52,134 bases of DNA from an uncultured Granulosicoccaceae bacterium (lineage in GTDB: Bacteria; Pseudomonadota; Gammaproteobacteria; Granulosicoccales; Granulosicoccaceae). The notes below the pieces were generated by a model, which saw only the letters and a program-made list of their open reading frames with translations, had not been told where the DNA came from and ran no database searches. Shown here one piece after another: positions 1,008-18,110 of this stretch (positions are counted from its first letter, which is position 1; every line of letters begins with the position of its first letter). Both the position numbers and the translations under genes were made by a program. The stretch covers positions 1-52,134 of the forward strand of contig CALKXD010000121.1 in assembly GCA_938003855.1 (NCBI GenBank). Reading direction: 5' to 3'.

Positions 1008-4000
1008 TTAATACTTACCAACCAGGTTCAAAAACCAGCCACGCACGTCGTAGTCATCCGTGGCTAGATTATCGTCAAAGCCGGTGAAATTGTAGCCGAC
1101 CGAAAACTGCAGATGGGTACTGACATTGTATCCCAGGGCCAGCAACGCACCCTGCAGCAGGGTGTCGCTTGCGTCGGATTTAAGCCAGTGGTACGAGCCA
1201 ATGACATCAGCGCCGAGCGGGGCTTTATAGCGCACTCGAAAAGCAGACAGCGCTGCATCGTTGGATACCCAGTCGCCCCCGTTTCGCTGCAGCCGGACCC
1301 GACCGTCACGGTGTGCCAGCTTGCCACCAATGCTCCATCGCTTGCCGAGTTCATACATGCCTTCGACGCTGTAGATCGATGAACGGGTATCGCTTGTGTC
1401 CGCTTGCGATAGAGGCGGGAGGTCGTGCAGGTAGGTCAGCCGGCCAAGCAGGTTGAATCGATCATTATTGACAGGACGGTAGGCAAAACCGACACCGGCT
1501 TCGGTGAATCTGGCATCATCGTCTGCCAGACGGTCGCTTGTCGATGAGGTATTCAGTCGGGCCTGCCAGCGCAGCGACGGTGATTGACGGTAGTCGAGGT
1601 GGTTTGTCATCACCCATTGATCTGTGTCTGTTGTGTCTGATTTGTCCCGGCGATATTCGAGTTTACTGCTTACGTGACTTGGCCCGTATTTATAGCTCAG
1701 CCCGGTGGAGACGGTATTGCGTCTTGTGATTGATGCCTGCTCGTCTTCGATGCGCGATGACTGGACCGATAACGTGCCGGTGGCGTGGCGATTAAAAGTG
1801 TTGCTCAAGCCGATAGTATTCGCGAGGCCGGTTTGCTTGTCATCGTCACTGAACTGGTGTTCTGTGTAGATTTTAAGATTGTCTGACAGGGTTTTTCTCT
1901 GACCCAGGGTGGTGGCATTGCGCAGTTCGTTCTGTGGGTTGTTGAGCAGACTGAAATTGCTATAGATACTGTAAGTGTCGCTCATTTTCCTTTCGGCACC
2001 TATCTGCAGGTTGGTGCCCCGATCCCCTGAACTGAGCTCTGTGCTCAGAGTCATTTTGTCGTCTATGCGTGCAGTAGCACCGGCGGTAAGCAGTGTGTTG
2101 TCGTTGTAGTTTCCGCTGCTCTGAAGAACGCCTTGAGCAATGCCGTAAACTGAAACCGAATCCGTTAACTTAACCTGCATTTTACCTGCTCCCAGTGTGG
2201 CAGACTCGGCTTCGCCAGAGGAAAATACCTCATCTCTGACGCGCCTTACCTCTGCGCTTAAGGTGGTATAGTCCGAGTATTTATAGTCGGCTTGAAATGC
2301 TGTGGTTGTTTCGCGGCTGGTGTTTTTCTTTTCCAGTTGTGTAGCGCGTCCAGACAATGTAAATGAGTCTCTGAGTTCTGCCACTACTTCTATACCACGG
2401 TCTGTGGTGTCTGTTCCGTTATCGAGACCCGCGGTTGAGAACCCGGCGTCGCGATACTTGCTCCAGGCGGCAACGACGATCGGTTTTTCAACAGACAAAA
2501 TATCATTGGCAGTGACTCTGGCCTCCAGACCCACTGCCATGCCGGATGATGCACTGCTGTTGCTGTTAAACGGGGTAAAGGTCAGGCCACCGTCACCGGA
2601 ATCGAAGCTGCCTGAATTCTGGCCGGACTCACTTTGCGCAACCTCGACTCTGAAATAGGTATTGTCAGTTTTCCTGACGGTGACATCGAGACCTTTGATA
2701 TCGTAGTCTTCGTTGTCACGGTTTTCGTGCGCCCAGGTACCGCCAACTGCGATGTGATCTGTGATCCATTGCTTGCCGCGTACCCCGAAGGTGGCGTCGC
2801 CTTCACCGACCGTCGACGGTGCGTACTCGTAGTCAACCACCAGGAAGGTATTGTCGTCCGGTTGCGGCTCGTCGCGAATAATCGACGGACCGCTGCTGGT
2901 GGATACACTGAGCAGTGGCCTGGTCAGAAGGATACGGCCCTGAAATTCGTCGAGTTCATAGTCACGGCCGCGTACCAGCGCTATTTTCTGCAGCACCTGC
3001 TCTGACGAGTTTCGTCTGACTTCAATCCAGATTTTTTCAGACCCCAGGACAATATCCTGATCGCGCAGGTAATAAAGGCTGCCGCCGGTGGCCTCGAACT
3101 CATTGTGGCGGAAACGGGTCTGTGACTCGGACATGAAGGCTGAGATCTGTGTTTTAGTGTCGCCGAGTGTTGTGGTTTTGTGACTGCGATGCTGTAACCG
3201 GGCACCATAGAGACTGCGATTAAACGCTGCATATTCGGTTCCGCTGAATGCTGTATTGAAGTTCCCCCACAGTGCGTGGGATTTATCCCAGTCAACCCGT
3301 AGATAGAGTTTACCCTGGCTATCGGTGTCTTCGACGATGGTTGAGTCATCGCCATACAGCAGATAGTACTGATCCGGGTCAATTCTTCGGAATACGCTGC
3401 TGGCATCTTTGCGGTGGAAGTTGTTGAATAGTTCCGAGACATCTTCTGTGCCGGTGTCCATTTGCGCGGTGATCAAATATTTACCGCGAACTTTACCTTT
3501 GAGATAAAACGCTAAGCGACCGTCGACAAATATGTCGCCGCCGTAGTGGTCTTCATCAACGGCTAACGGTTCTATACTGCCGCTGACGTTGTTTTTTCCG
3601 ATAGTGAGATCTGCCATACCCACCATAAAAAAGTAGTTGGGTTTAACGTCAATATCGAGTTTTTTGCGCGAGGTTTCACCGGTTACAGATTCTGCTGAGA
3701 TCTCGAACGCATGGTTGCCCGGTGGCAGAATATACTGCGAGGTAAACCCGTCTTCGCTGTTTATGGCAATCTTTTCGCCATTCACGTTAACCGTTTGAAT
3801 GCCGTTCAGGTCCTGGCCGCGGACGGTCACAGTACTGCCGGTTACGTCGATTGACTGCCGGGTATAGTTACGGTTGTAGGTCTCCAGATCTTCACTGAGC
3901 GATTTTACAGAGACCTTGTCCGTCGCCTGTAGTGATCCGGGGTCAGCTGTGAGCAGATCATTGGTTGAAACAAAAGTGATGGTGCTTGTTTCTGTTTGAT

Positions 4001-4661
4001 CAAAGTTACCTTTAGTGTCAAAGACCCGCAGGGCAATGTCATAGGTGTCGTCGGCGATCAATGCCTGGTCTGCCAGCCTACCGTGTTTGGTGGTACCGTC
4101 CCATTCTATCTCGGTGATGGTTCCTGATAATGTACCTTGCAGAACATGCAACGGCGTACTTTCCGGCGTGCTGTTGGCGGGCAGAATCAGTAGCTGCCAG
4201 CGGTCTATAAAGTGTCCGTAGTTGGTTGCGATTGAGATGGTTACCGGATTTTTCAGAGCACCATGCTCAATGGCCGCTGTGGCGGGGACTTTTATACCGA
4301 GCACAGGCTCGATTGTGGTCGGGTCTCGCGATACCCAGTAGTGACCATTACCGCTGTCAGAATATCTGTCGGCGGCTTCAATAGCGGTTGCAACCGGCAG
4401 TGCGTCGGGTCGGGGGTGTGTGGTTTTAAGGCTGACGTCAACCCGCCGGCTTCCCTGCAGTGTATTGCCGGCGTGTGACTGAGGACCGGGGTTTCCTTCA
4501 CCGTAGGTGATGATCCGCAACGAGTAGGGGGCTTCCTTTTCGCAGTCGTCGTAGAGGCAGTTAGGGTGTAATGCGAAACTGTAGCGTGGTTCGACTAGCG
4601 TGGCTGTACCACTGATCACGGCACAGGAGATTGCAATATTCAAGTAGTTTAATTTGATCAC
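1008..4661 (-). CDS. Large outer-membrane beta-barrel protein with N-terminal Ig/FlgD-like domains
   Basis: 1217 residues with an N-terminal hydrophobic signal (about 1-30). Residues about 30-330 look like beta-sandwich modules, including a FlgD-like stretch (W-D-G-T-T...G around residues 195-200) and a second Ig-like unit. A central segment follows with a conserved-looking Y-Y-L-L-Y-G-D-D-S-T motif. The C-terminal half is rich in alternating polar/aromatic strands and ends in Gly-Lys-Tyr, as outer-membrane barrels do. It starts at GTG; the GTGA overlap shares 4 bp with the end of the upstream DUF11/OmpA gene, so translation is probably coupled. From its position I infer that it anchors, exports or assembles the secreted repeat proteins encoded upstream. 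I do not recognise a named family; it is not a TonB receptor, as no plug or TonB box is seen. Confidence 0.75.
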   Translation of the reverse strand: MIKLNYLNIAISCAVISGTATLVEPRYSFALHPNCLYDDCEKEAPYSLRIITYGEGNPGPQSHAGNTLQGSRRVDVSLKTTHPRPDALPVATAIEAADRYSDSGNGHYWVSRDPTTIEPVLGIKVPATAAIEHGALKNPVTISIATNYGHFIDRWQLLILPANSTPESTPLHVLQGTLSGTITEIEWDGTTKHGRLADQALIADDTYDIALRVFDTKGNFDQTETSTITFVSTNDLLTADPGSLQATDKVSVKSLSEDLETYNRNYTRQSIDVTGSTVTVRGQDLNGIQTVNVNGEKIAINSEDGFTSQYILPPGNHAFEISAESVTGETSRKKLDIDVKPNYFFMVGMADLTIGKNNVSGSIEPLAVDEDHYGGDIFVDGRLAFYLKGKVRGKYLITAQMDTGTEDVSELFNNFHRKDASSVFRRIDPDQYYLLYGDDSTIVEDTDSQGKLYLRVDWDKSHALWGNFNTAFSGTEYAAFNRSLYGARLQHRSHKTTTLGDTKTQISAFMSESQTRFRHNEFEATGGSLYYLRDQDIVLGSEKIWIEVRRNSSEQVLQKIALVRGRDYELDEFQGRILLTRPLLSVSTSSGPSIIRDEPQPDDNTFLVVDYEYAPSTVGEGDATFGVRGKQWITDHIAVGGTWAHENRDNEDYDIKGLDVTVRKTDNTYFRVEVAQSESGQNSGSFDSGDGGLTFTPFNSNSSASSGMAVGLEARVTANDILSVEKPIVVAAWSKYRDAGFSTAGLDNGTDTTDRGIEVVAELRDSFTLSGRATQLEKKNTSRETTTAFQADYKYSDYTTLSAEVRRVRDEVFSSGEAESATLGAGKMQVKLTDSVSVYGIAQGVLQSSGNYNDNTLLTAGATARIDDKMTLSTELSSGDRGTNLQIGAERKMSDTYSIYSNFSLLNNPQNELRNATTLGQRKTLSDNLKIYTEHQFSDDDKQTGLANTIGLSNTFNRHATGTLSVQSSRIEDEQASITRRNTVSTGLSYKYGPSHVSSKLEYRRDKSDTTDTDQWVMTNHLDYRQSPSLRWQARLNTSSTSDRLADDDARFTEAGVGFAYRPVNNDRFNLLGRLTYLHDLPPLSQADTSDTRSSIYSVEGMYELGKRWSIGGKLAHRDGRVRLQRNGGDWVSNDAALSAFRVRYKAPLGADVIGSYHWLKSDASDTLLQGALLALGYNVSTHLQFSVGYNFTGFDDNLATDDYDVRGWFLNLVGKY

Positions 4662-7600
4662 CGATCAGCCTCCGGATTGGCAGCTGGATCGATTTCCACG
4701 CGGATTCTGGACATCAGCTTTTTACCCAGGGCGCGCGCAAGGATATCGCGAACAGTATCTGCTCTTTGGTGCGCCAGAATGGTGTTGTACTGGGCGCTGG
4801 CGCGGTTGTCGGTGTGAGCCGAGATTGTAATGACGCCTCCGCCATACTCACGAAGCGCGTCAATTATATCGGCCACGACACCGCGTTGATCGTCACGTAT
4901 AGACGCATCGTCGGTATCGAAGAAAATGGAACCCAGCTTGACTTCAACTGCTTGTCTGGCGGCGGCTGTGTGAGGCTCGCAGCCGTGTGCATACTGATCC
5001 ATTGGTTCCGGCAGGAAAACACCGAAGTTCATTCTGTTCAGTGCTCTATTGTCGATCCTCAGCACGTAAGGGTTTTCTGTCGTGAATAGCGCGTTGGCTG
5101 GCAGAGATGCAGGATCGACCTTGAGAATGAAGTTACGCCCGTTTGCCGTGTTTCCGGCGTCAACATCGGGAATACTGAAGCGGCCATACCCGTCAGCGGC
5201 TATCAGCAGTCCGCTGGCGGTGGCAAGTCTTGCACCGGGGATACCGGTCTCGCCAATACCCAGATTACTGAGCGTGATTTCGATGATGTCTACGGGGTCA
5301 GTGCCGGTAGTGCTATCGGCAAGCGTTGGTATGCCGATGGTGTGGCGGGTACAGACTTTTATGTCCTGCGCATTTATGCCGCGCGCCCGGTCACCAATGT
5401 GTCGTTCGGTAACTGAGCCGTTATTGTCTATCTCGATTCGAGTGCCTTCGCGGGTAGAGATTTCAAAGCGGTTATCGTTTGTTGCCGGCATGTTCACCAC
5501 CACTGCCGTGCTGGCCGGGTCGTCATTGATGCTGCCACGCGCGGGCAGATCGGGTAATTTCAGTGTGACGTAGTAGGGGCTCTGAATGGTTACCTGTGTT
5601 GCAGTAGCGGGATCCTGAATACCGTCTTTGTCGCGATCCCAGAATACCTTGCCAGTCAGCGTGGCCTGGCTTAATACGGTATCTGCGACGAGCTCTACAC
5701 CCGCGACTGCTTCGTTACTGGCCTCTCCGTTAGGGCCACTGGCTTTTACCCTGTTGGTGTAGTAACCACGGACCACGCCGGTGCCGACGCGCATCATATA
5801 GCTGATGCGTATCGACTCTTCAGGTGCCAGATCAATCTGACCGAGTGTCATGGTATTGGTAATCGCCGCATCCAGCGGCGTGATGACATCGTCTGCGGTG
5901 CCGAGTTCCAGATCCGCGCCTGTTCTGGTGAGCAGTACTGTGTTCGGCACGTAGGAAAAACCTGCGGGCGGGGTATCTATAATTTCGATATCCAGCGCCG
6001 GGGCCTGCTTGAGATTTTCAGCGGTTATCGTGTACTTCAACAGACCACCGACAGAGGTGCTCCGCTGGCTGGTACTTTTAGTCAGCAGAATTTCGGCGTC
6101 GTTGGCTCTGGCGTCAATCGGCAGGTGATTGAAAATGACATTCTGATCCCCCGATTCGAGCGCAAACTCGATGAAGTATCGGGTGTCGTCTCCGACTTGC
6201 GGGGCGTCTGGCTGTGGCTGGATCTCACAGGCATTGGTGTTGCTGAGTGCATCGACGGTACATAGTGATTCATTGTTGTTTGAATCGAAGGTTCCAGACA
6301 CCGCACAGCCGATCGCAGCGCTGCCGCAACCTGCTGCACCGACCGGTCTGATGATGGCGGAGAAGTCCGGGTGATAGGCCGCTGGCGCACTGACTATTTC
6401 CAGCCGATAAACATCGGCACTGGCACAAGTGCTGTGTGCCCCCGGTATAACATCGAATGCATACAATCCGTCGGCGGCAGTTACCTGACCTTGTTGATTG
6501 TCGCGTAGGCAGGTCGCATCGATTACTGTGCCAGTCGCATTCACCAGATGGAGCGTTACCCCCTCAACGGCGGAGCGTTCGATGCTGTCGTAGACAACCC
6601 CGCTCGGATCAACTGGCAACGGCAATAGCACTGTCTGACCGGCGACAACCGGCCCGGTTGTTTGTACGCTGTCCATGAAAACGCCGTTGACATTATAAAA
6701 CTCTATAGTGTATTCACCGGGAATCAGATCTAGAAACTCATACTCACCGTTTTCATCTGTGGTGGTTATGGCAACCACCCGGCCATCGCTATCCAGCAGG
6801 TTCAACGTCCAGTCGGTTTTTCGGGTTTCATCGCTGTTAACCTGGCCGTCTTTGTTGTGGTCAAGCCAGGCTGTGCCGGTTATAGAGGCCGGTGATTCGT
6901 AGGTAATGGTGACCGTGGCGCGGTTTGATTCGGCGTTGGTAGAATCAAACACAGTGTATTCAACGGGTGTCGGGTTGCGCAGATAACCCGCATCCGGTGT
7001 GAAGGTGATATTGCCGGTAACCAGGCTGACCCGCCAGACACCTTCACCGGCGACAGGCAGAACGGTTACCGATGCATCGGTCTGCGGATCAACAAGAGTC
7101 ACTGTCACCGGGTCGAGATTTTCCTCCGGGTCCGAGTCATTGCTCAGAACGGCGACGACTACCGGTTGGGCCAGCGGTTGGTTGAGTGCCTCATCATCTA
7201 CCGCCAGTGGAGCTGTTTGCGGATAATCAACGGTAATACTGGCCTGATTAGATACCAGCCCGGTAGTGTCTGAAATCGTGTAAAACACGGGAGTCGGGTC
7301 ACTGAAAAATCCCGACAGTGGAGTGAAGGTTACGCCACCTGTTTCATTGTCTATTTGCCAGTAGCCCTCGCCAGCGACGATCAGGTTGTCGGTATCGCCA
7401 TCACCGTCGGTATAGGTTGATCGGGCATCGGTAAACGTAACGGTACGGGCATCGAGATCATTCTCGGGATCAGTGTCTGCACCCTCGCCGTTGTCGGCCA
7501 GAACGTTCACCGTGGTTGGATTTTCCGGTGACGGCACAGCCGGGTTTACTTTCACATCGGCCTTCGCCAGTGGTGCTGTCTGCGGGTAGTTGATACTGAG

Positions 7601-10588
7601 CCCGGCGGCATTGGACACCTGACCGCTGCGATCGCTGATGGTGTAGCTAACCGGGGCCGGATCGTCGGTGTAACCCACCTCAGGCGTGAAGGTCACCGTA
7701 CCGGTGTTGTTGTCTGCTATCCAGCTGCCAACGTTTGCGACAGTAAGGCTGTCGAAGTCGCCATCACCATCGGTATCCAGTGCGTCTGGGTGGATCAGGC
7801 TAACGGTTGTGTCGTCTTTGTCGTTGTTGATATCACTGTCGTTGGTGCCACCGGGCAGGGTGACCGGGACCGCACTTATCTCAGAGCTCACGTGGTCTGC
7901 GGTGGCGACAGGTGGTGTAGTTATCATCTGAACGGTGATCACGCCACTGTCAGCGCCGATGCTCTGCCCGCCGGGGTCAATTGAACTGACTGACGCCAGA
8001 TTGTCTATTTTTGTTGCCGCGATGTCGGCATCTACGACAGTGCGTATGGCCGTACAGTTCATCTGATCGCCCGGTTCCAGGGTGAACGGGCCTGTGGATA
8101 ATTGTGCAGAAACCGGTTGACCCGGTGGCAGACAGCGCAGGCTGCCCCGGTCCGCCAGTGGGTCGCTTATCGTGACCTCTGTGAGTGGCAGATTTCCGGT
8201 GTTGCTGACCAGAAAGGCATAGTTGATGATGTCACCGGCGATGGTAAAGCCTTCTTCCACAGCGGTTTTTACGATTTTTATTGCGGGCTGCTGGCTTATA
8301 CCGGTCTCTGCGGAGTCGCTAAGTGTGCCGGCCTCTGCGGTATCGACAGTCACAGAATTAACCAGCGCTGTTCCTGCAACAATATCTGCCAGTGACGCGG
8401 AATAACCCGTGTTGTACGTCCAGGTCTCACCGACATCCAGCGCGCTGGCAATGCCAACATCACCGGTCGGTCCGGTTAACAGTGTTGTTGTGCCATCGGG
8501 GAGTTGATCGCTGACGACGACATCGGTCAGGGTGATGTTGCCGGTGTTGCTTATCGTTATCCGGTAGGACAGCAACTGTGGTTCAGAGATAGTTTGTTGC
8601 TCAACAGTCTTTTCAACACTAAAGCCCGGTGTGCTGGTGATGGTGGTGGTAGCGCTTGCGGTATAGAGGTCTGTGCCTGTCTGCTCACTGGTAACAGTGA
8701 CGGTATTGTTCTTCGGTGACCCGGCGTCTATGTCACTTTGGCCGACGCTGTACGTTGTGGTGTACTGCCATGTTTCTGCGACGTCGAGGGTGCCGATAGC
8801 TCCGCTGTCATTGAGCGGGCCCACCAGTACGGCGGTTGTACCGTCGGGAAGTGTGTCTACCGGTGTGACGCCGGTCAGGCTGGTATTGCCGGTGTTGATG
8901 ACGTCAATAACATAGCTGACAGTGGCAGGTGCGCTGAGCGTTGCCTGGTCTGCGGTTTTGGTCACCCGTATTTCAGGGGCGCTGCTGACGACTGTTGTCG
9001 CCGATGCGGTTTGCGGATCTGCCTCTGCCGGGTTAACGCTGATGGTGTTGGTGAGATCAGCGGTGGTGTCTATATCGGCCTGGGTTACCTGATAGGATGA
9101 GGTGTAGTTCCACGATTCGCCGACATCCAGTACACCTGCGACACCGGTGTCGCTGGATGGGCCATTGAGCTCTATCACCGAACCATTGGAGTACTGATCA
9201 GTCATTGCGACATCACTCAGTGTGACGTTGCCGGTGTTGGTAATCTCTATCCTGTAGCTGAGCAGGCCGGGAGTGCTGACAGACGTCCGGTCGACCGTTT
9301 TTGCAACGGTGAAGGCGGGTGTTGTGACTATTTCCGTCGTTGCGGAATCGCTCTGAGGGGTTGTGCCGGTTTCATTGCTTACCACTTCAACGCGATTAAC
9401 CAGATCCACTGCAGAGTCAATAGTGTTCTGATCCACCGGGTAGCTGATGTTATAGATCCAGGTTTCGGCAACGTCCAGCACACCCGCGGTGGCACTATCG
9501 GCAACAGGCCCGGCGGGGGTGACGTCGGTGCCATCGGGCAGGTAATCCGTGACGGTCACGCCGGTGAGCGAGAGATTGCCGGTGTTTTCGACCGCTATGG
9601 TGTAGTTCAGCGTTGCTGGTGCTGACAATGAAGGGCTATCGACGGCTTTGGTGACGGTGAAGCCTGGTTTCGATACTATAAGTGTCTCGGCTGTTGCGGT
9701 CCGCGCAGCGCTGCCGGTTTCCAGAGCCGTAACTGTCACCGAATTGATCAGTGCGTTGCCGCTATCGATATCGGTTTGGGTCGCTGTATAGCTTGTGGTG
9801 AACTCCCAGCTTTCACCCGGGGAGAGTTGTGCGGGTTGTCCGGTATCGCCAGCGGGACCGGTGAGCGTCGCGGTTGTTCCATCCGGCAATGTATCGGTGG
9901 GGGTGATCCCCGTGAGGGTCTGGTTGCCAGTGTTGGTCACAGCTATGGTGTAGGTCAGTGTTGACGGTATTGCTACAGAAGGTTGGTCGACTGCCTTAGT
10001 TACGGTCAATGCCGGCCTCTGTGAAACCGGCACGGCGACGGAGTCTGATACCGCTGGCAACTCATTGGTTGATACGGTAACGGTGTTATCTATATCGGCG
10101 TCACCGCCTCCGTTGGTATCGATGTCGGATTGCTGGACCTGGTAAGTTCCCTGCCATTGCCATATTTCGTTGGCGCCCAGGATGCCGTCGTTATTTGTAT
10201 CGCCGCTGATCAGTGACATATCCGCGTCGGCGATAATGCTGTCGGCCACGGTGACATTGGTGAGACCGAGCAGACCCGGGTTTTCTGCGGTAACGGTGTA
10301 AGTGATTTGATCCCCCGCCGCGATCGGGTCAGACAGCGCCGAGGTATCAGCGGATTTGGTGATTTTCAGGCCTTTTGGCAGAACCACCACGCTTGCGGTG
10401 TTGTTGGCTGTGTTGTTTTCGAACTGACCCGGAGAGGCGGCGACAACACCGGTGTTGGTGTATTGCGCCGCAGCCATGCCATTCACTGCCGAGACTACCG
10501 GGTTGGATATAGTGAAGCAGCACAAGCCGACAGCGACAGCGGTCAGCTGTCGCTTTGCTCGTCTAAAATGGAGTGGCCCGGGTATCAA
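4658..10588 (-). CDS. Giant surface protein: DUF11-type repeats, CshA-type repeats, SdrD-B-like modules, C-terminal OmpA domain
   Basis: 1976 residues. A signal peptide (about 1-34) is followed by a segment resembling the N-terminus of the 1591-residue neighbour (Tyr-x-Asn-Thr...Gln-Phe-Glu-x-Asn). Then come seven DUF11/DUF7507-type beta-sandwich units of about 115 residues (about 70-885; recurring N-T-G-N...L-P-D-G-T), three CshA-type fibril units (F-T-P-x-x-G-Y...Y-T-I-S-D), SdrD-B/prealbumin-like units (G-T-A-W-L-D-H-N-K-D-G), one more DUF11-like unit, and an OmpA domain at 1881-1976 with the peptidoglycan-binding motif H-T-D-N. The OmpA end should hold it to the cell wall in the periplasm while the repeats extend outward; that topology is inference. 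The start is TTG, overlapping the previous stop as TTGA; no ATG occurs in frame before the signal peptide. It overlaps the barrel gene by GTGA. Confidence 0.85.
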   Translation of the reverse strand: MIPGPLHFRRAKRQLTAVAVGLCCFTISNPVVSAVNGMAAAQYTNTGVVAASPGQFENNTANNTASVVVLPKGLKITKSADTSALSDPIAAGDQITYTVTAENPGLLGLTNVTVADSIIADADMSLISGDTNNDGILGANEIWQWQGTYQVQQSDIDTNGGGDADIDNTVTVSTNELPAVSDSVAVPVSQRPALTVTKAVDQPSVAIPSTLTYTIAVTNTGNQTLTGITPTDTLPDGTTATLTGPAGDTGQPAQLSPGESWEFTTSYTATQTDIDSGNALINSVTVTALETGSAARTATAETLIVSKPGFTVTKAVDSPSLSAPATLNYTIAVENTGNLSLTGVTVTDYLPDGTDVTPAGPVADSATAGVLDVAETWIYNISYPVDQNTIDSAVDLVNRVEVVSNETGTTPQSDSATTEIVTTPAFTVAKTVDRTSVSTPGLLSYRIEITNTGNVTLSDVAMTDQYSNGSVIELNGPSSDTGVAGVLDVGESWNYTSSYQVTQADIDTTADLTNTISVNPAEADPQTASATTVVSSAPEIRVTKTADQATLSAPATVSYVIDVINTGNTSLTGVTPVDTLPDGTTAVLVGPLNDSGAIGTLDVAETWQYTTTYSVGQSDIDAGSPKNNTVTVTSEQTGTDLYTASATTTITSTPGFSVEKTVEQQTISEPQLLSYRITISNTGNITLTDVVVSDQLPDGTTTLLTGPTGDVGIASALDVGETWTYNTGYSASLADIVAGTALVNSVTVDTAEAGTLSDSAETGISQQPAIKIVKTAVEEGFTIAGDIINYAFLVSNTGNLPLTEVTISDPLADRGSLRCLPPGQPVSAQLSTGPFTLEPGDQMNCTAIRTVVDADIAATKIDNLASVSSIDPGGQSIGADSGVITVQMITTPPVATADHVSSEISAVPVTLPGGTNDSDINNDKDDTTVSLIHPDALDTDGDGDFDSLTVANVGSWIADNNTGTVTFTPEVGYTDDPAPVSYTISDRSGQVSNAAGLSINYPQTAPLAKADVKVNPAVPSPENPTTVNVLADNGEGADTDPENDLDARTVTFTDARSTYTDGDGDTDNLIVAGEGYWQIDNETGGVTFTPLSGFFSDPTPVFYTISDTTGLVSNQASITVDYPQTAPLAVDDEALNQPLAQPVVVAVLSNDSDPEENLDPVTVTLVDPQTDASVTVLPVAGEGVWRVSLVTGNITFTPDAGYLRNPTPVEYTVFDSTNAESNRATVTITYESPASITGTAWLDHNKDGQVNSDETRKTDWTLNLLDSDGRVVAITTTDENGEYEFLDLIPGEYTIEFYNVNGVFMDSVQTTGPVVAGQTVLLPLPVDPSGVVYDSIERSAVEGVTLHLVNATGTVIDATCLRDNQQGQVTAADGLYAFDVIPGAHSTCASADVYRLEIVSAPAAYHPDFSAIIRPVGAAGCGSAAIGCAVSGTFDSNNNESLCTVDALSNTNACEIQPQPDAPQVGDDTRYFIEFALESGDQNVIFNHLPIDARANDAEILLTKSTSQRSTSVGGLLKYTITAENLKQAPALDIEIIDTPPAGFSYVPNTVLLTRTGADLELGTADDVITPLDAAITNTMTLGQIDLAPEESIRISYMMRVGTGVVRGYYTNRVKASGPNGEASNEAVAGVELVADTVLSQATLTGKVFWDRDKDGIQDPATATQVTIQSPYYVTLKLPDLPARGSINDDPASTAVVVNMPATNDNRFEISTREGTRIEIDNNGSVTERHIGDRARGINAQDIKVCTRHTIGIPTLADSTTGTDPVDIIEITLSNLGIGETGIPGARLATASGLLIAADGYGRFSIPDVDAGNTANGRNFILKVDPASLPANALFTTENPYVLRIDNRALNRMNFGVFLPEPMDQYAHGCEPHTAAARQAVEVKLGSIFFDTDDASIRDDQRGVVADIIDALREYGGGVITISAHTDNRASAQYNTILAHQRADTVRDILARALGKKLMSRIRVEIDPAANPEADR

Positions 10589-13500
10589 GGGGCATTCACT
10601 ATGACATCGAATGTCAGTGTCACCGGGCTGCCTGCCGGGACTGTGGCCAGAGTCCAGCTCAGTCCTGCACCGGTCGGATCGCTATCGTCATTTGCCGTGC
10701 CGCCGGCGATAGACCCTGCGACGTAGGCAAAACCCGGCAGCACGATATCGGTTACCGTCGCGTTGGTGGCAACATCGGGACCAGCGTTGCTGATGGTCAG
10801 CGTGAAAGTGACTGTGTCGCCAATGTTCGGGGTGATGTCACTCACCACTTTTGTTATCGATAGATCAATGCCAAGGTCGTTGTTTATAATTTCACACACC
10901 ACCGCCGCCCCCGGAGCCAGAGTTACCTGAGTACCGGTTGCGGTACCCGACGTCGGGAGTCCGCTCGTCAGTCCGTTGCTGTCACTGCAGGACCAGGTTC
11001 CCTCTGCGTAGCGGGGCAGATCAAGCTCGGTGATGCTGATGACTGTGTTAGCCATAACATCTATCGGTGTGCCGCTGGTCACTTCTGACCCGTCTATAGA
11101 AATATCAAAGTCTTCGACCGCTTTGTCGCCGCCGTTGTCGTTGATGACGGTTTTGATCAGTGTCAGTGTGGGTGAGATATCGTTGTTGGTAATCCCGCAG
11201 GTCACAATGGCACCTGACGCGAGTGTTATCAGCTCTCCCGATGCCGCACCGGTGGTTGGCAGATCAGCGGTAAGTCCGGTGCTGTCGGAACAGCTCCAGG
11301 TACCTGCCAGATAACCGTCGGGCTCAAGTTCACTGATCGTAATGGCGGTGTTGGCGACTACCGTCTGCGCGGTGCCTTCGGGGACTTCTGTGCCGTCGAT
11401 GGAGAGATCAAAATCGTCAATCGTCAGCGCGCCACCGTTGTCGTTTATCAGTGTTTTGGTCAGCGACAATGTGGGTGCAATATCGTTGTTGGTGATCATG
11501 CACGTGACATCGGAACCGGGAGCAAGTGACAACGAGTCTCCAGTGGCGACACCGGCAGATAACAGACCGGTACTTAAACTGTTTGCATCGGTGCAGGCCC
11601 ATGTGCCTTCGGTATAACCGGGGTAATCCGCTTCACCGATGGTGATCGCGGTGTTTGCCAGAACAGTTTGCGGGCTGGCACTGGCGGCAAGTGCGCCGTT
11701 GAGCAGCATGGTAAAGTCGGTATTGGTCAGCAGGCCACCGTCATCATTGATTACGTTCATGATCAGAGTCAGTCTGGGGCTTATATCATCATTGACGATG
11801 GCGCAATTCACGTTTGAGCCCGGGGCAAGCGTCAGATCGGTTCCGGTAGCCGTACCAGCGTCGGGTAGGTTTGTGGTCAGGCTGTTACTGTCCACACAAG
11901 ACCAGCTACCGTGGGTATATCCGGCAACGTCTAACTCACTGATGGTGATACTGCTATTTGCAGTAACGGTTTGTGCGACGCTGGCGGGGACTTCGTTGCC
12001 GTCGATGGACAGCTCGAAATCTGCGATGGTAAGCGCTCCTCCATCGTCGTTTATGACGGTTTTAGTCAGTGTTAGTAACGGTGCGATATCATTGTTTGTG
12101 ATTTCACAGACGACCGCTGAGCCTTCCTGCAGATTGACCGTTGTCGCCAGGGCGTCGCCACCGGTAGGCAGTCCGGTGGTCTGGCTATTCTGGTCACTAC
12201 ATGCCCAGCTGCCATTGGTGTAGCCGGGCAGGTTGAGTTCACTGATGATGAGATCGGTATTCGCAGCGACCGTATTTGACACACCACTGGTGACGACGTT
12301 GCCGTCTATAGAGAGATTGAAATCTCCGACGGTTAAATTGCCCCCGTCATCATTAATCAGCGTTTTTGTCAGCGTTAATGTGGGTGCGATATCTGAATTA
12401 GTGATCGAGCAGGTGACTTCGGCGCCGGGCTTGAGTTCAATGCTGACGCCTGTTGCGGCACCGGCCGTTGGCAATCCCGGAGTCAGGCTGCTGGCATCGA
12501 CACATGACCAGCTACCTGCAGAGTAACCCGGCAGGTCTAACTCGGAAATAGTCACAGCGGTGTTGGCCGGTACATTCACCGGTGTGCCGGACGCGACCGC
12601 GGTGCCGTCAATAGCGATATTGAAATCAGCAATCTCCAGTGCGCCTCCATTGTTGTTTTGAAGCGTTTTTACAAGCGTTAGCGTGGGCTGGATGTCGTCA
12701 TTGGTAATACTGCATTGCACAGCAGACCCGGGTACCAATGTCAGAAGCTCGCCTGACGCGTCGCCGTTAGCTGGTAAACCTGTTGCCAGACCATTGGCAT
12801 CAACACAGGACCAGCTGCCGCTGGTGTATCCGCCCGTTACTGCTTCACTGACTTCGATTGCGGTGTTGGCCATGACCGGAATAACCTGACCGCTGGTGAC
12901 AGGTGTTCCGTCAATCGATAGATCAAAGTCTCCTGCCACTAGATCACCGCCGTTGTCGTTTACGACGGTTTTGACCAGAGACAGTGTCGGTGTGATATCG
13001 TCATTAGTTATCTCACAGGTCACGGCTGATCCCGGTTTGATCGTCATTGAGACTCCGGTTGCCGTGCCGGCATCGGGTAAGGTGCCGGTTAGAGCATTTG
13101 CGTCAACGCAACTCCACGACCCCTCGGTATAGCCCGCAAGATCAAGCTCGCTAATCGTCAGCGGTATGTTGGCGGTAATTGTCTGAGCGGTATTGTGCGC
13201 GACGGCAGTGTTGTCTATCGCTAAGCCGAAGTCTGCGGCAACCCGATCACCACCATTGTCATTGATGATCGTATTCACCAGCGTCAGCGTGGCCGGAATA
13301 TCATTGTTGGTTATTTCGCATTGCACGGCAGAGCCGGGTTTCAGATTAACGGTCGTGTTGGCAGCACTTCCGGCAGTGGGCAATCCGGTTGTCTGCGCGT
13401 TGCCATCGGTGCACGACCAGGCGCCTGAGTCATAGCCGTCGACGATAAGCTCGCTGATCGTGATATCGACATTCGCCAGTACGGCCTGCGCAATGCCACT

Positions 13501-15360
13501 GACTGCTTCAGAGCCATCGATTGAGATGTCGAAATCTGCAATGGTCAGGTCACCGCCGTTGTCATTGGTGAGTGTTTTGGTCAGGGTGAGTGTCGGGGCG
13601 ATGTCATTGTTGGAGATCTCACAGGTGACGGCTGCCCCTTCGGAGAGCTCAACCACAGTGCCGGTGGCGATGCCTGCTGTTGGTAGACCGGTGGTAAGCC
13701 CGTTGGCGTCAACACAGGCCCATGTGCCTTCTGTGTAGCCACCATCATCAACTTCACTGATCGTATACGGTACGCCGGCTGATAACAGGTTGGCCACGCC
13801 ATTAGTGACTTCTGTTCCGTCTATAGAAATTTCAAAATCGTCAACCGTCAGCAGCCCGCCGTCGTCATTAACGATGGATTTTGTAAGCGTTAGTGTGGGG
13901 GCAATATCGTCGTTAATGATAGAACACGTAACCTCCGAACCGGGCGCGAGAGTGACGCTGGTGCCAATCGCGGCGCCGGCTGTTGGCAGTGCCGTTGCCA
14001 GCCCGTTTGCATCCACACAGCTCCAGGTACCCGCGGTGTAACCCTCTATTGCCAGTTCAGCAACGGTGATAGAGGTGTTGGCGTCGACTGATACAGCAGT
14101 GTTGTTGCTTGCCTCTGTGCCGTCGATAGAGATATCGAAATCGTCAATAGTCAATGATCCGCCGTTGTCATTGGTCAGTGTTTTTGCAAGTGTCAGTGTC
14201 GGTGCTATATCGTTATTGCTGATCGAGCAGGTAACCTCTGCGCCGGCGGCCAGCGTCACCGGTGTGCCGGTTGCGTTGCCGGCGGCAGGCAGGCCCGTAG
14301 TCAGGCTGGTGGCGTCAACACAGGCCCATGTGCCAGTGGTATAGCCGGGTAAGGCCAGTTCACTGATTGTCAGTACGGTGTTGGCTGCAACGGTCTGCGC
14401 TGTGCTGGCTGGTACCCCTGAACCCTCTATCGAAAGATCAAAGTCTGCAATAGAGAGGTTGCCGCCGTTGTCGTTGGTGAGGTTCTGTACAAGAGTCAGT
14501 CTAGGGGCGATATCGTTGTTGCTGATTTGACAGGTGACCTCGGCTCCCGGACTGAGTGTTACCACGGTCGACGATGCGAGGCCTGCAGTGGGTAGTCCGC
14601 TGGTCAGACCACTTGCGTCTAAACATTCCCAGGTGCCTTCTGCATAGCCTGGATCGTCGAGTTCACTGATGGTGATTGGCGTATTGGCACTGACCGGCTG
14701 AGCCAGTCCGCTGGGCACCACGGTGCCGTCAATGGCGGGGTCAAAATCGGCGGCAGTCAATGTGCCACCATCATCGTTGACAACGGTTTTGGCCAGTGTC
14801 AGCGTTGGTGCTATATCATTGTTAACGATGGTACAAACGGTGGATTCGCCAAATGCGAGAGTGATTTCACCGTCGTTATAGGTGTCTTTACTGAGTGTTC
14901 CGGTGCTGCAACTCCACAGCCCTTCAGTGTAGCCGTCTACATCTGCCTCTGCCAGAGTGTAGGTTCCGGGAGCGACATAAAGCGTGTCGGATGTGAATGT
15001 GGTTGTGGATCCGGCCGTTGTACCTGAATCGAAAGACAGCGCACCGGCACTGGAGTTAATCCCGAAATCTACCAGTGACAGGGTGCCGCCATCGTCGTTT
15101 ATGACCTGTTTTACAATGATTATTTCAGCATTGGGAGTCACGCCGACTGTATTGCTGTTGTTGGCGTTGTTGATTTCGAATTGATCTGCCGAGGGTGACA
15201 CCACGGCCGTATTTTCGTAGTCTGACAGCGTCATTGGGTATGCGACCATTGGGATCAGCATTAACCCGAGCACACTCAGACGCGGAGCACTGAACTCCTT
15301 TTCAAGAAGCGTGTGCCTGATGGTTTTATAGAATCGATCTGTTTTAGTATTTTTTATCAT
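10585..15360 (-). CDS. Secreted tandem CnaB-like repeat protein with terminal DUF11 module
   Basis: 1591 residues. An N-terminal segment contains a hydrophobic export stretch (about 27-43), then a spacer, a divergent first repeat (78-184), 13 repeats of exactly 101 residues (185-1497), and one DUF11 module (1498-1591). Each 101-residue unit keeps Trp60-x-Cys62, Glu49 in an I-S-E-L-type strand followed by G-Y, Cys93 and Asn97. Lys7 is present in 10 of 13. This Lys/Glu/Asn layout is that of CnaB (prealbumin-like) domains that form Lys-Asn isopeptide bonds; the Cys pair could add a disulfide. The likely role is a rigid extracellular stalk or adhesin. It ATG-starts 28 nt after the 632-residue gene and shares its last 4 bp with the next gene. 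No sortase motif or lectin domain is seen, so the ligand is unknown. Confidence 0.85.
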   Translation of the reverse strand: MIKNTKTDRFYKTIRHTLLEKEFSAPRLSVLGLMLIPMVAYPMTLSDYENTAVVSPSADQFEINNANNSNTVGVTPNAEIIIVKQVINDDGGTLSLVDFGINSSAGALSFDSGTTAGSTTTFTSDTLYVAPGTYTLAEADVDGYTEGLWSCSTGTLSKDTYNDGEITLAFGESTVCTIVNNDIAPTLTLAKTVVNDDGGTLTAADFDPAIDGTVVPSGLAQPVSANTPITISELDDPGYAEGTWECLDASGLTSGLPTAGLASSTVVTLSPGAEVTCQISNNDIAPRLTLVQNLTNDNGGNLSIADFDLSIEGSGVPASTAQTVAANTVLTISELALPGYTTGTWACVDATSLTTGLPAAGNATGTPVTLAAGAEVTCSISNNDIAPTLTLAKTLTNDNGGSLTIDDFDISIDGTEASNNTAVSVDANTSITVAELAIEGYTAGTWSCVDANGLATALPTAGAAIGTSVTLAPGSEVTCSIINDDIAPTLTLTKSIVNDDGGLLTVDDFEISIDGTEVTNGVANLLSAGVPYTISEVDDGGYTEGTWACVDANGLTTGLPTAGIATGTVVELSEGAAVTCEISNNDIAPTLTLTKTLTNDNGGDLTIADFDISIDGSEAVSGIAQAVLANVDITISELIVDGYDSGAWSCTDGNAQTTGLPTAGSAANTTVNLKPGSAVQCEITNNDIPATLTLVNTIINDNGGDRVAADFGLAIDNTAVAHNTAQTITANIPLTISELDLAGYTEGSWSCVDANALTGTLPDAGTATGVSMTIKPGSAVTCEITNDDITPTLSLVKTVVNDNGGDLVAGDFDLSIDGTPVTSGQVIPVMANTAIEVSEAVTGGYTSGSWSCVDANGLATGLPANGDASGELLTLVPGSAVQCSITNDDIQPTLTLVKTLQNNNGGALEIADFNIAIDGTAVASGTPVNVPANTAVTISELDLPGYSAGSWSCVDASSLTPGLPTAGAATGVSIELKPGAEVTCSITNSDIAPTLTLTKTLINDDGGNLTVGDFNLSIDGNVVTSGVSNTVAANTDLIISELNLPGYTNGSWACSDQNSQTTGLPTGGDALATTVNLQEGSAVVCEITNNDIAPLLTLTKTVINDDGGALTIADFELSIDGNEVPASVAQTVTANSSITISELDVAGYTHGSWSCVDSNSLTTNLPDAGTATGTDLTLAPGSNVNCAIVNDDISPRLTLIMNVINDDGGLLTNTDFTMLLNGALAASASPQTVLANTAITIGEADYPGYTEGTWACTDANSLSTGLLSAGVATGDSLSLAPGSDVTCMITNNDIAPTLSLTKTLINDNGGALTIDDFDLSIDGTEVPEGTAQTVVANTAITISELEPDGYLAGTWSCSDSTGLTADLPTTGAASGELITLASGAIVTCGITNNDISPTLTLIKTVINDNGGDKAVEDFDISIDGSEVTSGTPIDVMANTVISITELDLPRYAEGTWSCSDSNGLTSGLPTSGTATGTQVTLAPGAAVVCEIINNDLGIDLSITKVVSDITPNIGDTVTFTLTISNAGPDVATNATVTDIVLPGFAYVAGSIAGGTANDDSDPTGAGLSWTLATVPAGSPVTLTFDVIVNAP
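10870..14808 (-). repeat. Tandem 303-bp coding repeat, 13 units
   Basis: Thirteen in-frame units of 303 bp (101 codons) with no length variation, inside the 1591-residue gene. Units differ by many substitutions, so this is an old array, but uniform length suggests maintenance by selection or by unequal recombination. The array is a likely site of copy-number change between strains. Confidence 0.9.
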
Positions 15361-15388
15361 GATCTAATTGCCCGCTGTCCCGGCATAC

Positions 15389-17287
15389 TCAAGGAGCGAT
15401 TACAGTTGCTTTAAAGGTTAAAACTTCCGTCGTGTTTGGGGCCAGGCTGGCAATTCCCCATTCGAGGCCGGTTCCCGCTGGTGACGTCTCTAGCATTGTC
15501 GAGCCACCTGTCATAGAAGCTGTGACGTAGCTGAAACCGGCTTTTACGACATCGGTAACCTGAACATCTGTCGCGTTGTTCGGACCGTTGTTAGTCACTT
15601 TGATCGTGAAGGTAACGGTGTCGCCCGCATTGGGTGAGCTGTCGTCGACGGACTTAAACACCTCGAGGTCAACGCCCCGGTCATCATTAATAAATGTACA
15701 AACGACGTTTTCCCCGTCTGTTATGTCCAAACCGTCTGATCCGATTGTGTCAATGCCATTGCATGTGATCTCCATCAGTGCGTAGCCCTGGGCGCCGGTT
15801 TCGGAGAGCGTGTAACTTCCGGGTAGAACACTGGTGTTGGTAATGGCAGTGGCGCCGTGCGGGCCGCTGGTGGATACGCCGCTGGCGTCTTCAAAACTCA
15901 GAACGAAATCACCGACCAGTGCGGTGCCGCCATTGTCGTTGATGACAATTTTTTCGAGAGTCAGGAATGCTTCCGGCGGAGGGACGAAGAGGTCGTCATT
16001 GATGAGCGTGCAAACTGCGGAGTCACCCGCACTCAGTGTTATCGTTGTGCCGGTTAAGGTTGTACCAGTGCAACTCCATGACCCCAGGTAACCGCCCGGA
16101 CCGGTCTCCGATAGCGTATAGGTGCCGGGGCTGACTGTGGCCTTTGTTATATCTGCATCACCACTTTTACCGGCGATGGCATCTGCGCCACTTGCGATTA
16201 AGTTGAAATCAGTGGTTGTTGATGAACCACCGTTGTCGTTAACGACCTGCTTTAACATAGTGAGTTCCGCCGTGGCGAAAACCCAGTAGTCGATAATTTC
16301 TTTGGTATGGCTACGTGAGGTGTCTGCCGCGAAAACTTCTTCATCGATGGCAAGCGTGATTTGATTGGCTGAAAGCGGATCCGATCCATACAGGACAGCC
16401 CATGATCCGTCGCCACCATCCTCACCGACCTGATTTAGTACGCCGACGGTGTAGTTGCCGTTAACGGTATAGGTATACCCGCTGTTTGAGGCGTTATTGC
16501 CGGCGATTGAATCGCTGCCCCTGGCAAGCGCATAGGCAATACCGTTTACGCTGCCACTGCCTGCTTCGGCTACCAGGTAGCCGATAGTCTCTGGAGCTCG
16601 CGTGCCGGCAATCTGACCAATGTGCTTACCGACGCAGATTCCGTCTGAGTGTCCGCTGTTATAGGGCTCATTGGTCCGTGATTCACAGTCTGATGCGGTA
16701 AAAACACTGGCACGGTTGTCCTGATTGCTGATCACCTGTCCGAGTACGACGTGGTTGGTATAGGTGTTGGTGATGGTCGCGCTGACATCTTCCATCAAGG
16801 ACTGAGTCCAGCCTCCATCAGTCGCACTCCGCCCCACCGTCTTGTCCGACTCAACGGTATAGGCTTCGTATTGACGGCCATCCGGCAAGGTGTGTGCGCC
16901 GCTGTCGGTCACCAGACAATGCACATCTGCGGTGACTGCTGTGGAGTCCTCCCATCCCTGAATCCGTATGTCGAACGTGTTTGTACTTATGTTTCGAATA
17001 CGAACGACTGCCGGGGTGTAGTCGTAATTCGGGGACGATCCCGAGAAGGACTGCAGGTTATATGTGCAAATTGGAATCGCACTGGAGTAGTTGTTCGATA
17101 GCGTGACGGTTTGCCAGTTGCTCGATACCGATCTGAGCAGGTGTACCTCAAGGTCAGCGGTAAGCACAGCAGCATGCGTGTTGGTTAGCAGTCCGCAGGA
17201 TGCAAACAGAATTGCCGCTGTTGCGATAACCGATCGGTGAAACAGATCCCCGATTTGACTGCCTATTGAGTTGAACTGCTGCTGCAA
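15389..17287 (-). CDS. Secreted protein with two CnaB-like repeats and terminal DUF11 module (first gene of operon)
   Basis: 632 residues. Signal peptide about 1-39 (hydrophobic 19-34, cleavage likely after T-H-A). A 300-residue N-terminal region (40-340) with several Cys and many Gly/Asn is of unrecognised fold and could be the functional head. Two repeats of the same family as the 1591-residue neighbour follow at 341-439 and 440-538 (Lys, S-E-T-G, Cys pair, I-N-D-D), then a 94-residue DUF11 module (539-632) of the same length as the neighbour's terminal module. The start is TTG at 17287, preceded by AGGA with 8 nt spacing; the nearby ATG is out of frame. It is probably the first gene of the four-gene operon and may be the tip or minor subunit. 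Confidence 0.8.
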   Translation of the reverse strand: MQQQFNSIGSQIGDLFHRSVIATAAILFASCGLLTNTHAAVLTADLEVHLLRSVSSNWQTVTLSNNYSSAIPICTYNLQSFSGSSPNYDYTPAVVRIRNISTNTFDIRIQGWEDSTAVTADVHCLVTDSGAHTLPDGRQYEAYTVESDKTVGRSATDGGWTQSLMEDVSATITNTYTNHVVLGQVISNQDNRASVFTASDCESRTNEPYNSGHSDGICVGKHIGQIAGTRAPETIGYLVAEAGSGSVNGIAYALARGSDSIAGNNASNSGYTYTVNGNYTVGVLNQVGEDGGDGSWAVLYGSDPLSANQITLAIDEEVFAADTSRSHTKEIIDYWVFATAELTMLKQVVNDNGGSSTTTDFNLIASGADAIAGKSGDADITKATVSPGTYTLSETGPGGYLGSWSCTGTTLTGTTITLSAGDSAVCTLINDDLFVPPPEAFLTLEKIVINDNGGTALVGDFVLSFEDASGVSTSGPHGATAITNTSVLPGSYTLSETGAQGYALMEITCNGIDTIGSDGLDITDGENVVCTFINDDRGVDLEVFKSVDDSSPNAGDTVTFTIKVTNNGPNNATDVQVTDVVKAGFSYVTASMTGGSTMLETSPAGTGLEWGIASLAPNTTEVLTFKATVIAP

Positions 17288-17421
17288 AACATCGTTCCTG
17301 AAACGTCATCAACGCGGGCTGGCATCAAGGAGCCAGTTCTTAATTAACGCCAGTTAATAAGATCCGTCGAATTATTTGAGACGTTGAGTCGCAAGGCGTA
17401 ACGAAAAATGGATTTACAACT

Positions 17422-17430
17422 CTTATACCA
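17422..17430 (-). promoter_or_regulatory. Candidate extended -10 promoter of surface-protein operon
   Basis: On the minus strand this reads TGG-TATAAG, an extended -10 (TGn-TATAAT-like) element. No good -35 hexamer sits 16-18 nt upstream, which fits an extended -10 promoter or one needing an activator. It would give a leader of roughly 130 nt before the TTG start at 17287. Confidence 0.35.
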
Positions 17431-17431
17431 A

Positions 17432-17450
17432 TCAACCAATGTTTGGTTGA
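17432..17450. promoter_or_regulatory. Perfect 8-bp inverted repeat next to the -10 box (candidate operator)
   Basis: TCAACCAA-TGT-TTGGTTGA, arms of 8 bp around 3 bp. On the minus strand it ends one base upstream of the extended -10 element, where the -35 and spacer would lie, so a bound regulator would control the operon. The regulator family is unknown. Confidence 0.45.
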
Positions 17451-17572
17451 CCTGTCCGGGTTTACAATCGTTTACCTGGGCGGGCTGTCACATCCCGTAG
17501 AAATGTTCAGAAATCCACGTTTTTTGCGTAAAGTAAATTGCAGTTGTGAGTTGTTGGTTGCTGTTAAAAAAA

Positions 17573-17586
17573 GTAAAGCGCTTTCA
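17573..17586. promoter_or_regulatory. LacI/GalR-type palindrome
   Basis: GTAAAGCGCTTTCA, with the AAAGCGCTTT core and central CG typical of LacI/GalR-family operators. It lies about 290 bp upstream of the first surface gene. No LacI-family gene is in the window. A 10-bp palindrome can arise by chance. Confidence 0.25.
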
Positions 17587-18068
17587 GTGGCGTGATTGTG
17601 GCGGGTTGGAATGGCGTTTGTGTTGGTTGCATGCGCGAATTTATAGAGTATTGTCTTGAACCGCTGCAGGATCGCTGAAGTTCCGGCGACGGGTGATCTG
17701 TATAACCTGTGTTTTGCAATGAGCTCTAGGGTCGTGGATTCGGGTGGGTTCTAAAGTAGACCAGGCAACCAGTTCAGCTGTGTGCGATCAGTGTTCCGGT
17801 AGGTACTGGTAGGGAGCTGGCGGTTGCGATCGTTCAGAAGAGGCTGTCGGTGGCAGCTCCAGCAGGTGAATTTCGGAATCCGCTCCGGTGTGCGACCCGA
17901 TACCGCAGGGTGCTGCACTGACAGAATTGGCCGATGTTGCTACCGCGTCACTTCAGGGTGATAAGACTTGTAGATGCCGCTAATTGAGCGGGGGTACTGA
18001 TCAGCACATGTCGGTAGGGTTGTCACCCGTGATCCGCTGAAGGAGTCTGTTATAGACGATATCACAAG

Positions 18069-18106
18069 CAGCAATTGTCACTATTGCAGTGAATGCGAAA
18101 TTGCTG
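18069..18106. other. Inverted repeat just after the ABC ATPase stop codon
   Basis: CAGCAATT (18069-18076) pairs with AATTGCTG (18099-18106), with a smaller TCAC/GTGA pair inside. It lies within 5 bp of the ATPase stop on the minus strand. No T-run follows, so it is at most a 3'-stabilising or Rho-dependent end. Confidence 0.3.
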
Positions 18107-18110
18107 TGAT

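Follow-up and report, generated by a model that had tools for sequence, protein, structure and literature searches.

The window analyzed here is a whole stretch of 52,134 nucleotides (contig CALKXD010000121.1 of GenBank assembly GCA_938003855.1) from the 6.8-Mb draft genome (G000) of an uncultured Granulosicoccaceae bacterium, and our subject is a block of four minus-strand genes at positions 1008 to 17287 that probably encodes a surface fiber. In the order P4, P3, giant, and BAR, these genes encode 5,416 residues in total; P3/giant and giant/BAR form 4-bp overlaps, and P4/P3 are separated by a 28-bp gap. An earlier note, made from the letters of this DNA alone, had reported four same-strand genes of about 5,400 residues, three of them joined by 4-bp overlaps, and this is confirmed, with two 4-bp overlaps. 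In what follows, a DUF11 domain that lacks its final part is called a catcher, and an N-terminal hairpin that resembles this final part is called a tag. P4 (15389 to 17287; 632 aa), the proposed tip subunit, has a signal peptide, a lectin-like N-terminal region, two SpaA_2 (CnaB-like) domains, and a C-terminal truncated DUF11 domain, and it has no tag. P3 (10585 to 15360; 1591 aa), the proposed shaft subunit, has an N-terminal tag, 14 SpaA_2 domains (10867 to 15129, from Pfam and repeat comparison), and a C-terminal catcher. The giant (4658 to 10588; 1976 aa), the proposed base subunit, has a tag, DUF7507/DUF11 repeats, three CshA repeats, SdrD_B, a conserved C-terminal region (4949 to 6871), and a partial OmpA domain, as detected with Pfam and NCBIfam. 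BAR (1008 to 4661; 1217 aa), a dedicated outer-membrane barrel protein, matches no curated Pfam or NCBIfam family above cut-off. Signal peptides are predicted from sequence on each separate subunit.

Judged by domain-profile matches, every gene junction of the block falls inside a domain: DUF11 and OmpA domains are split across neighboring proteins, and these splits would explain how the parts are joined. Pfam DUF11 matches P4 and P3 alike over model positions 1 to ~85 of 114, a span that extends to the last residues of each protein. Catcher 1, at the P4 C-terminus (15392 to 15670), is cut at model position 85 to 87 of 114 and contains Lys545 and Asp579, and catcher 2, at the P3 C-terminus (10588 to 10866), is cut at position 85 to 86 of 114 and contains Lys1504 and Asp1538. 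The missing DUF11 part is resembled by the mature N-termini of P3, MTLSDYENTAVVSPSADQFEINNANNSNTVGVTP (tag 1, 15133 to 15234), and of the giant, QYTNTGVVAASPGQFENNTANNTASVVVLP (tag 2, 10379 to 10480), which lie directly after the signal peptides. Tag 1 is a C-terminal DUF11 hairpin with an invariant Asn (Asn50), and tag 2 is a DUF11 hairpin with Asn45. On its own, the giant N-terminus matches DUF11 positions 86 to 114 of 114, with no overlap with the catcher match at 1 to 85. When P3 is joined in silico to the giant, the DUF11 match extends over positions 1 to 114 and scores 83.3 bits, compared with 70.9 bits for the P3 C-terminus alone, and the P4-P3 join matches positions 1 to 113 with 101.6 bits, compared with 81.6 bits alone. 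When the N-terminus of the barrel or of P4 is joined to P3 as a control, the scores are 71.7 and 72.8 bits. In an orthologous locus (L029), the DUF11 join raises the score from 88.0 to 97.0 bits.

The same joins were scored with an independent DUF11 model, made solely from internal repeats of other bacteria. With this model, joining the P3 tag gives a mean gain of 6.3 to 7.3 bits over 14 to 15 genomes and moves the end of the match from 86 to 111, whereas the controls (shuffled tags, BAR N-termini, and P4 N-termini) give gains of -0.7 to 1.9 bits and ends at 88 to 97. Among the 143 DUF11 matches in the fetched loci, all 31 C-terminal ones end at positions 83 to 86, and none of the internal ones do. 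One candidate catcher (L260) was left out of the counts because its reading frame was wrong.

The DUF11 domain, renamed CLIPPER, has been described in a giant-like adhesin, where a Lys715-Asn806 isopeptide bond forms with Asp748 nearby (structure 9IFR; PMC12617251). The Lys-Asp spacing is 34 residues in the window and 33 in 9IFR. The Lys and the catalytic Asp are invariant in the catcher half (29/29), and the Asn is invariant in the tag hairpin (30/30). The junction domains have Lys and an acid on one chain and Asn on the other, as a split isopeptide tag/catcher pair requires, which spreads the triad of a single bond over two chains. With the Lys and Asp of the CLIPPER triad supplied by the catcher and its Asn by the tag, a spontaneous intermolecular isopeptide bond probably seals the tag-catcher joint. 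Natural, self-formed intermolecular isopeptide bonds named in PMC12617251 are those of phage capsids and an alpha-helical hairpin case, "sporesilk" fibers. The P3 shaft is probably bonded within its domains too, because its CnaB repeats (13 of exactly 101 aa and 1 divergent repeat) have their own Lys at the isopeptide position (10/13), Glu (13/13, by eye), and conserved Cys pair.

The second split domain lies at the junction of the giant and BAR. The giant C-terminus (4661 to 4954) matches OmpA positions 1 to 76 of 98 in Pfam (1 to 68 of 98 when the full protein is scored), which is about two thirds of the domain, and it includes the TD...R residues (Asp and Arg) that make the usual peptidoglycan contacts in OmpA-type domains. 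Directly after its signal peptide, BAR (4422 to 4562) has the family consensus GEGxPxxxNxxxEGxQxNRRVDV, which corresponds to the end of an OmpA domain. In L029, a trimmed join matches OmpA positions 1 to 98 with 49.3 bits, compared with 42.9 bits for the first part alone (positions 1 to 67) and 42.5 bits for the control. In genome G018, one protein of 2249 aa comprises a giant-type C region, a complete contiguous OmpA domain, and then the barrel. In genomes G066 and G055, the OmpA domain is without the typical residues, and the split shape is, by eye, seemingly kept. Two further observations concern this region. One-gene giant-barrel fusions (L079, L100, L087, L113, L083, and L077) have a signal-peptide-like hydrophobic stretch with an AxA motif between the OmpA parts, which could be a remnant or could still be cleaved. 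The barrel protein of G066 (L044, 11666 to 16816) has three complete-looking OmpA-like repeats ahead of the degenerate split OmpA part.

BAR was modeled with AlphaFold2 using 45 homologues (mean pLDDT, 75.5; pTM, 0.69). The model has a floppy N-terminus, which is the lone OmpA part, followed by two Ig-like domains (3726 to 4343; model residues 80 to 285) that are expected to be periplasmic and by ~40 predicted strands of at least 8 residues, assigned by DSSP, that continue to the C-terminus (large β-barrel region, 1014 to 3674). By Foldseek, the closest structures are SlpA, SprA, FimD, and TonB-dependent receptors, with E values of 6e-8 to 1e-6 and a query-length TM score of ~0.2 or less. By VIA-align, FimD is the top match (Z, 16.2; rmsd, 11.4; 345 residues), followed closely by porins and AlgE. 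The usher family (PF00577, at E values up to 5) matches none of 10 BAR family members, and Pfam SprA_N gave no match. An SprA-like identity of the barrel was not upheld, since SprA, FimD, SlpA, and TonB-dependent receptors match weakly and about equally. The model supports the view that BAR is a very large barrel, without a family assignment. We infer from its size that such a pore could pass folded Ig rods, and BAR is likely to be an exit pore and outer-membrane collar.

At the other end of the proposed fiber, the N-terminal region of P4 contains an H-type-lectin-like β-sandwich (16898 to 17176). The Pfam H_lectin match (E = 3e-4; 21.2 bits) is below the cut-off of 24. Residues 1 to 92 of mature P4 are modeled confidently by AlphaFold2, and the model beyond approximately residue 110 is too poor for use. 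In VIA-align comparisons of residues 1 to 92, phage and pyocin fiber knobs have Z scores of 7 to 8.4 (phage AP22 gp53, 8.4; R2 pyocin fiber, 7.2), and H-type lectins and discoidin I have Z scores of 5.9 to 6.6 (Helix agglutinins, 6.4). These structural matches, together with the sub-threshold H_lectin match, suggest that the N-terminal domain of P4 binds glycan, and the fiber most likely presents a lectin for attachment.

Searches for BAR covered 76 relatives, 369 genomes of the class, 299 of the phylum, and named genomes as well. The four-gene block is found in the same order in 13 to 14 related genomes, which is far beyond chance; the barrel identity is 45 to 60%, and the flanks differ. The block is incomplete at contig ends. 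Most of the named relatives that have the orthologous locus are uncultured Granulosicoccaceae metagenome-assembled genomes, and the length of P3 among the orthologues ranges from 480 to 1597 aa. The barrel family is matched in 44 of the 299 sampled genomes of the phylum. Of 80 named BAR loci, 77 include upstream DNA, and in 76 of these 77 BAR occurs together with the giant C-terminal region, either as neighboring genes (60 loci) or as a single fused gene (16 loci). These loci are from Gammaproteobacteria and from records labeled Desulfobulbaceae, Nitrospirae, Campylobacterales, Acidobacteria, Myxococcales, and Eisenbacteria. Among cultured bacteria, Leucothrix, Cocleimonas, Lysobacter, and Pseudoxanthomonas have the giant and BAR together. 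P3 and P4 accompany BAR in only 13 of the 80 named loci, nearly all of which are labeled Granulosicoccaceae. Based on this difference, we conclude that the giant and BAR are a near-obligate pair that forms the core of the system and that the CnaB stalk is a lineage-specific addition. The earlier note had described a self-contained unit with its own barrel. The unit stands, as the four genes co-occur and the flanks do not, and the barrel does keep to the giant, but it is not tied to the CnaB stalk genes. Barrel homologues regularly found without the repeat genes, which the note had named as evidence against its view, are therefore a reality for the CnaB genes and not for the giant. Two other arrangements were seen among the loci. 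At one locus, extra secreted DUF11-bearing proteins (L027, 1173 to 2732, and L063, 14534 to 15253) are beside the four-gene block, and the L063 protein has a truncated DUF11 end and could be an alternative tip. In genome G159, an 11,777-aa single open frame (contig C2, ~442000 to 464000) contains more than 25 DUF11 repeats plus the barrel.

We think it likely, though clearly short of certain, that the block encodes a sortase-free and chaperone-free surface fiber that is assembled by head-to-tail split-domain joining, which is probably covalent, and whose base is docked by a split OmpA domain to peptidoglycan and to the barrel. Each subunit would be exported by its own signal peptide, and cleavage of the signal peptide would expose an N-terminal hairpin of ~30 residues, the last part of DUF11/CLIPPER, on P3 and the giant. 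This tag would complete the catcher of the preceding subunit, and a spontaneous Lys-Asn isopeptide bond between the subunits would probably seal the joint. Because of the tag/catcher grammar, the order would be the tip P4 (catcher only, with the lectin), the shaft P3 (tag and catcher, possibly in several copies), and the base giant (tag only). Since the giant supplies most of the OmpA domain and the BAR N-terminus the remainder, the fiber base would be clamped through this shared domain to both peptidoglycan and BAR, with BAR serving as exit pore and collar. The interpretation in the earlier note, in which the giant and the barrel anchor or export the stalk proteins, is supported in part, and it had missed the split DUF11 and OmpA domains.

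Several results weigh against this proposal. The joins exist here as profile-score gains alone, and some of these are small. With the independent model, the giant tag gives a mean gain of 1.7 to 2.8 bits, which is no clearer than the barrel-N-terminus control, and its evidence is therefore the alignment end, at 111, and the Pfam result. The OmpA gain requires trimming of a duplicated β-3 strand; the naive join in L029 scores 43.7 bits (a gain of 0.8). A paralogous cluster on contig C33 of the same genome, which is described below, backs the pattern by motif only, with a weak profile gain from 17.0 to 20.9 bits. Neither an energy source nor a chaperone for export was identified. Finally, some DUF11 domains keep the fold yet are without the bond (PMC12617251).

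The existence of such bond-free domains favors an alternative in which the split domains are joined noncovalently: the hairpin would serve as a pair of donor strands, the way subunits are joined in chaperone-usher or type V pili, and no isopeptide bond would link the subunits; domain complementarity would work without any chemistry. We regard this as unlikely, though it has to be taken seriously, given that the junction Lys, Asp, and Asn are all invariant, that the Lys-Asp spacing agrees with that of 9IFR, and that the split sits just ahead of the strand bearing the reactive Asn. The presence of both halves on P3 raises another question, which is whether its tag pairs with the catcher of the same molecule, or mainly with that of other P3 copies, to form rings or a homopolymer apart from P4 and the giant. 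The P3 catcher-P3 tag pair scores approximately as well as the P4-P3 pair. However, self-joining would leave the tag of the giant and the catcher of P4 without a use, and a rod of 14 CnaB domains is unlikely to close into a ring; we consider this explanation very improbable. A homopolymeric P3 section within the fiber is compatible with head-to-tail assembly from P4 to the giant.

Just as improbable is the possibility that these are ordinary fibrillar adhesins with a porin that is merely adjacent; the truncated ends would then be tolerated, and the hairpins at the N-termini would be left over from lost domains. In its favor, single DUF11 adhesins that carry an OmpA anchor have been described (PMC12617251), and P3 and P4 are missing beside the barrel and giant in most taxa. 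Against this, 29 of 29 catchers stop at the same residue, the tags follow the signal peptides directly, and the order and grammar are kept across the 13 to 14 genomes. In addition, in five genomes whose giants are tagless by eye (L078, L080, L115, L125, and L129), there is no DUF11 match ending at 83 to 89. The idea that the gene boundaries are frameshift or assembly artifacts within one huge gene, which could be drawn from junctions inside domains and from the one-gene giant-barrel versions (G018, L079, and L100), can be dismissed, since it is contradicted by conservation of the boundaries, the giant/barrel 4-bp overlap, and the separate signal peptides in 13 to 14 genomes.

Catcher ends are also found away from four-gene blocks. 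The paralogous cluster on C33 (L004, G000:C33:22000-41000; 2786 to 19001) encodes two DUF11 proteins, each of which has a tag motif at its N-terminus and is truncated at its C-terminus, together with a barrel protein of 2017 aa that has its own tag motif. It also encodes a separate OmpA-like protein and a large untagged protein that may be the tip of this cluster. In genome G121 (L220, L221, L223, and L224), at least seven secreted tip-like proteins on four contigs have differing N-termini and a DUF11 end at 85 to 92; there is one barrel cluster with tag motifs, and most of the catcher-ended proteins are on separate contigs. In Pseudoxanthomonas and Luteimonas, the giants start in a tag-like manner, and several unlinked proteins in the same genomes have the catcher ending. 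One tentative idea, toward which we are almost evenly disposed but lean slightly to the doubtful side, is that this is a natural Gram-negative plug-and-play display, in which a truncated CLIPPER domain would act as a C-terminal sorting signal and be captured covalently, without an enzyme, by the N-terminal tags of a shaft or a barrel-bound base.

The block is flanked in the window by an arylformamidase-like gene and an oligopeptide/nickel-type ABC transporter; neither belongs to the unit, because orthologous loci keep the four genes together and have other flanks. Upstream of P4, no promoter-like site was found, and one weak terminator-like site (1039 to 1053), with a score near chance level, is within the barrel gene. 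Searches with the PADLOC, PHROG, and Rfam libraries gave zero matches. PDB sequence searches gave no convincing relatives for P3, P4, or the barrel, and 9IFR was absent from the results.

Literature searches turned up no account of a natural fiber based on split DUF11 or OmpA domains; earlier publications deal with DUF11 adhesins that have OmpA anchors but not with the split. The closest of these, the DUF11/CLIPPER adhesin of Acinetobacter silvestris (B9T28_05395; PMC12617251), is similar in its CshA-type and CLIPPER repeats, its C-terminal OmpA-like domain, and its Lys-Asp-Asn triad. It differs in being a single chain with intramolecular bonds, and neither a split domain nor partner subunits nor a dedicated barrel are mentioned in the available part of that report. 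Like the DUF11-OmpA adhesins, the giant has DUF11/DUF7507 stalk repeats and a C-terminal OmpA domain (here incomplete) in one chain, but the junction domains are unlike them in having the triad over two chains instead of one.

The earlier note had seen no sortase, usher, or type 1, 5, or 9 export component, and indeed none is linked to the locus. Compared with sortase-built Gram-positive pili, the proposed fiber has a similar CnaB-rich shaft, an adhesin tip, and, if the bond forms, a covalent chain. Neither an LPXTG motif nor a linked sortase was found, the C-termini ending in ...VxAP* or similar; the sole sortase found in the genome is on contig C7 (G000:C7:38625-38993; L226), far from the locus. 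SprA, the type 9 translocon with a 36-strand barrel (8gl8; Foldseek E, 2.9e-7; TM, 0.12), is similar in being a very large barrel, but this locus has no SprA_N match and no other type 9 secretion part, and its host is gammaproteobacterial. In chaperone-usher pili (FimD/FimH), each Ig-fold subunit is completed by part of the one that comes next, and the sequence complementarity found here suggests a similar arrangement; a tip adhesin without a donor segment and a large outer-membrane barrel are further resemblances. In contrast, this locus has no chaperone gene, no usher Pfam match, and an OmpA/peptidoglycan anchor; its donor would be a hairpin with a reactive Asn, and its subunits are multidomain proteins of up to 1,976 aa. 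No PapD-type chaperone gene was found in the four-gene block, and a PapD_C match within P3 has no independently passing stretch.

If the split-domain assembly proposed here is true, it would be a Gram-negative surface fiber made without sortase, usher, or chaperone. A widespread barrel family, for which we found no described function, would gain a role that can be tested, and truncated DUF11 C-termini would become readable as sorting signals. The assembly would also be a natural counterpart of SpyTag/SpyCatcher, and its tag/catcher pairs would be candidate orthogonal protein-ligation pairs. SpyTag/SpyCatcher and other engineered split CnaA/CnaB systems (PMC5487036 and PMC6539128) likewise combine a catcher that has Lys and an acid with a short Asn/Asp tag. 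Those systems are engineered, whereas the split here is natural, concerns a domain of the DUF11 (CnaA-like) type, and would serve as the principle of assembly.

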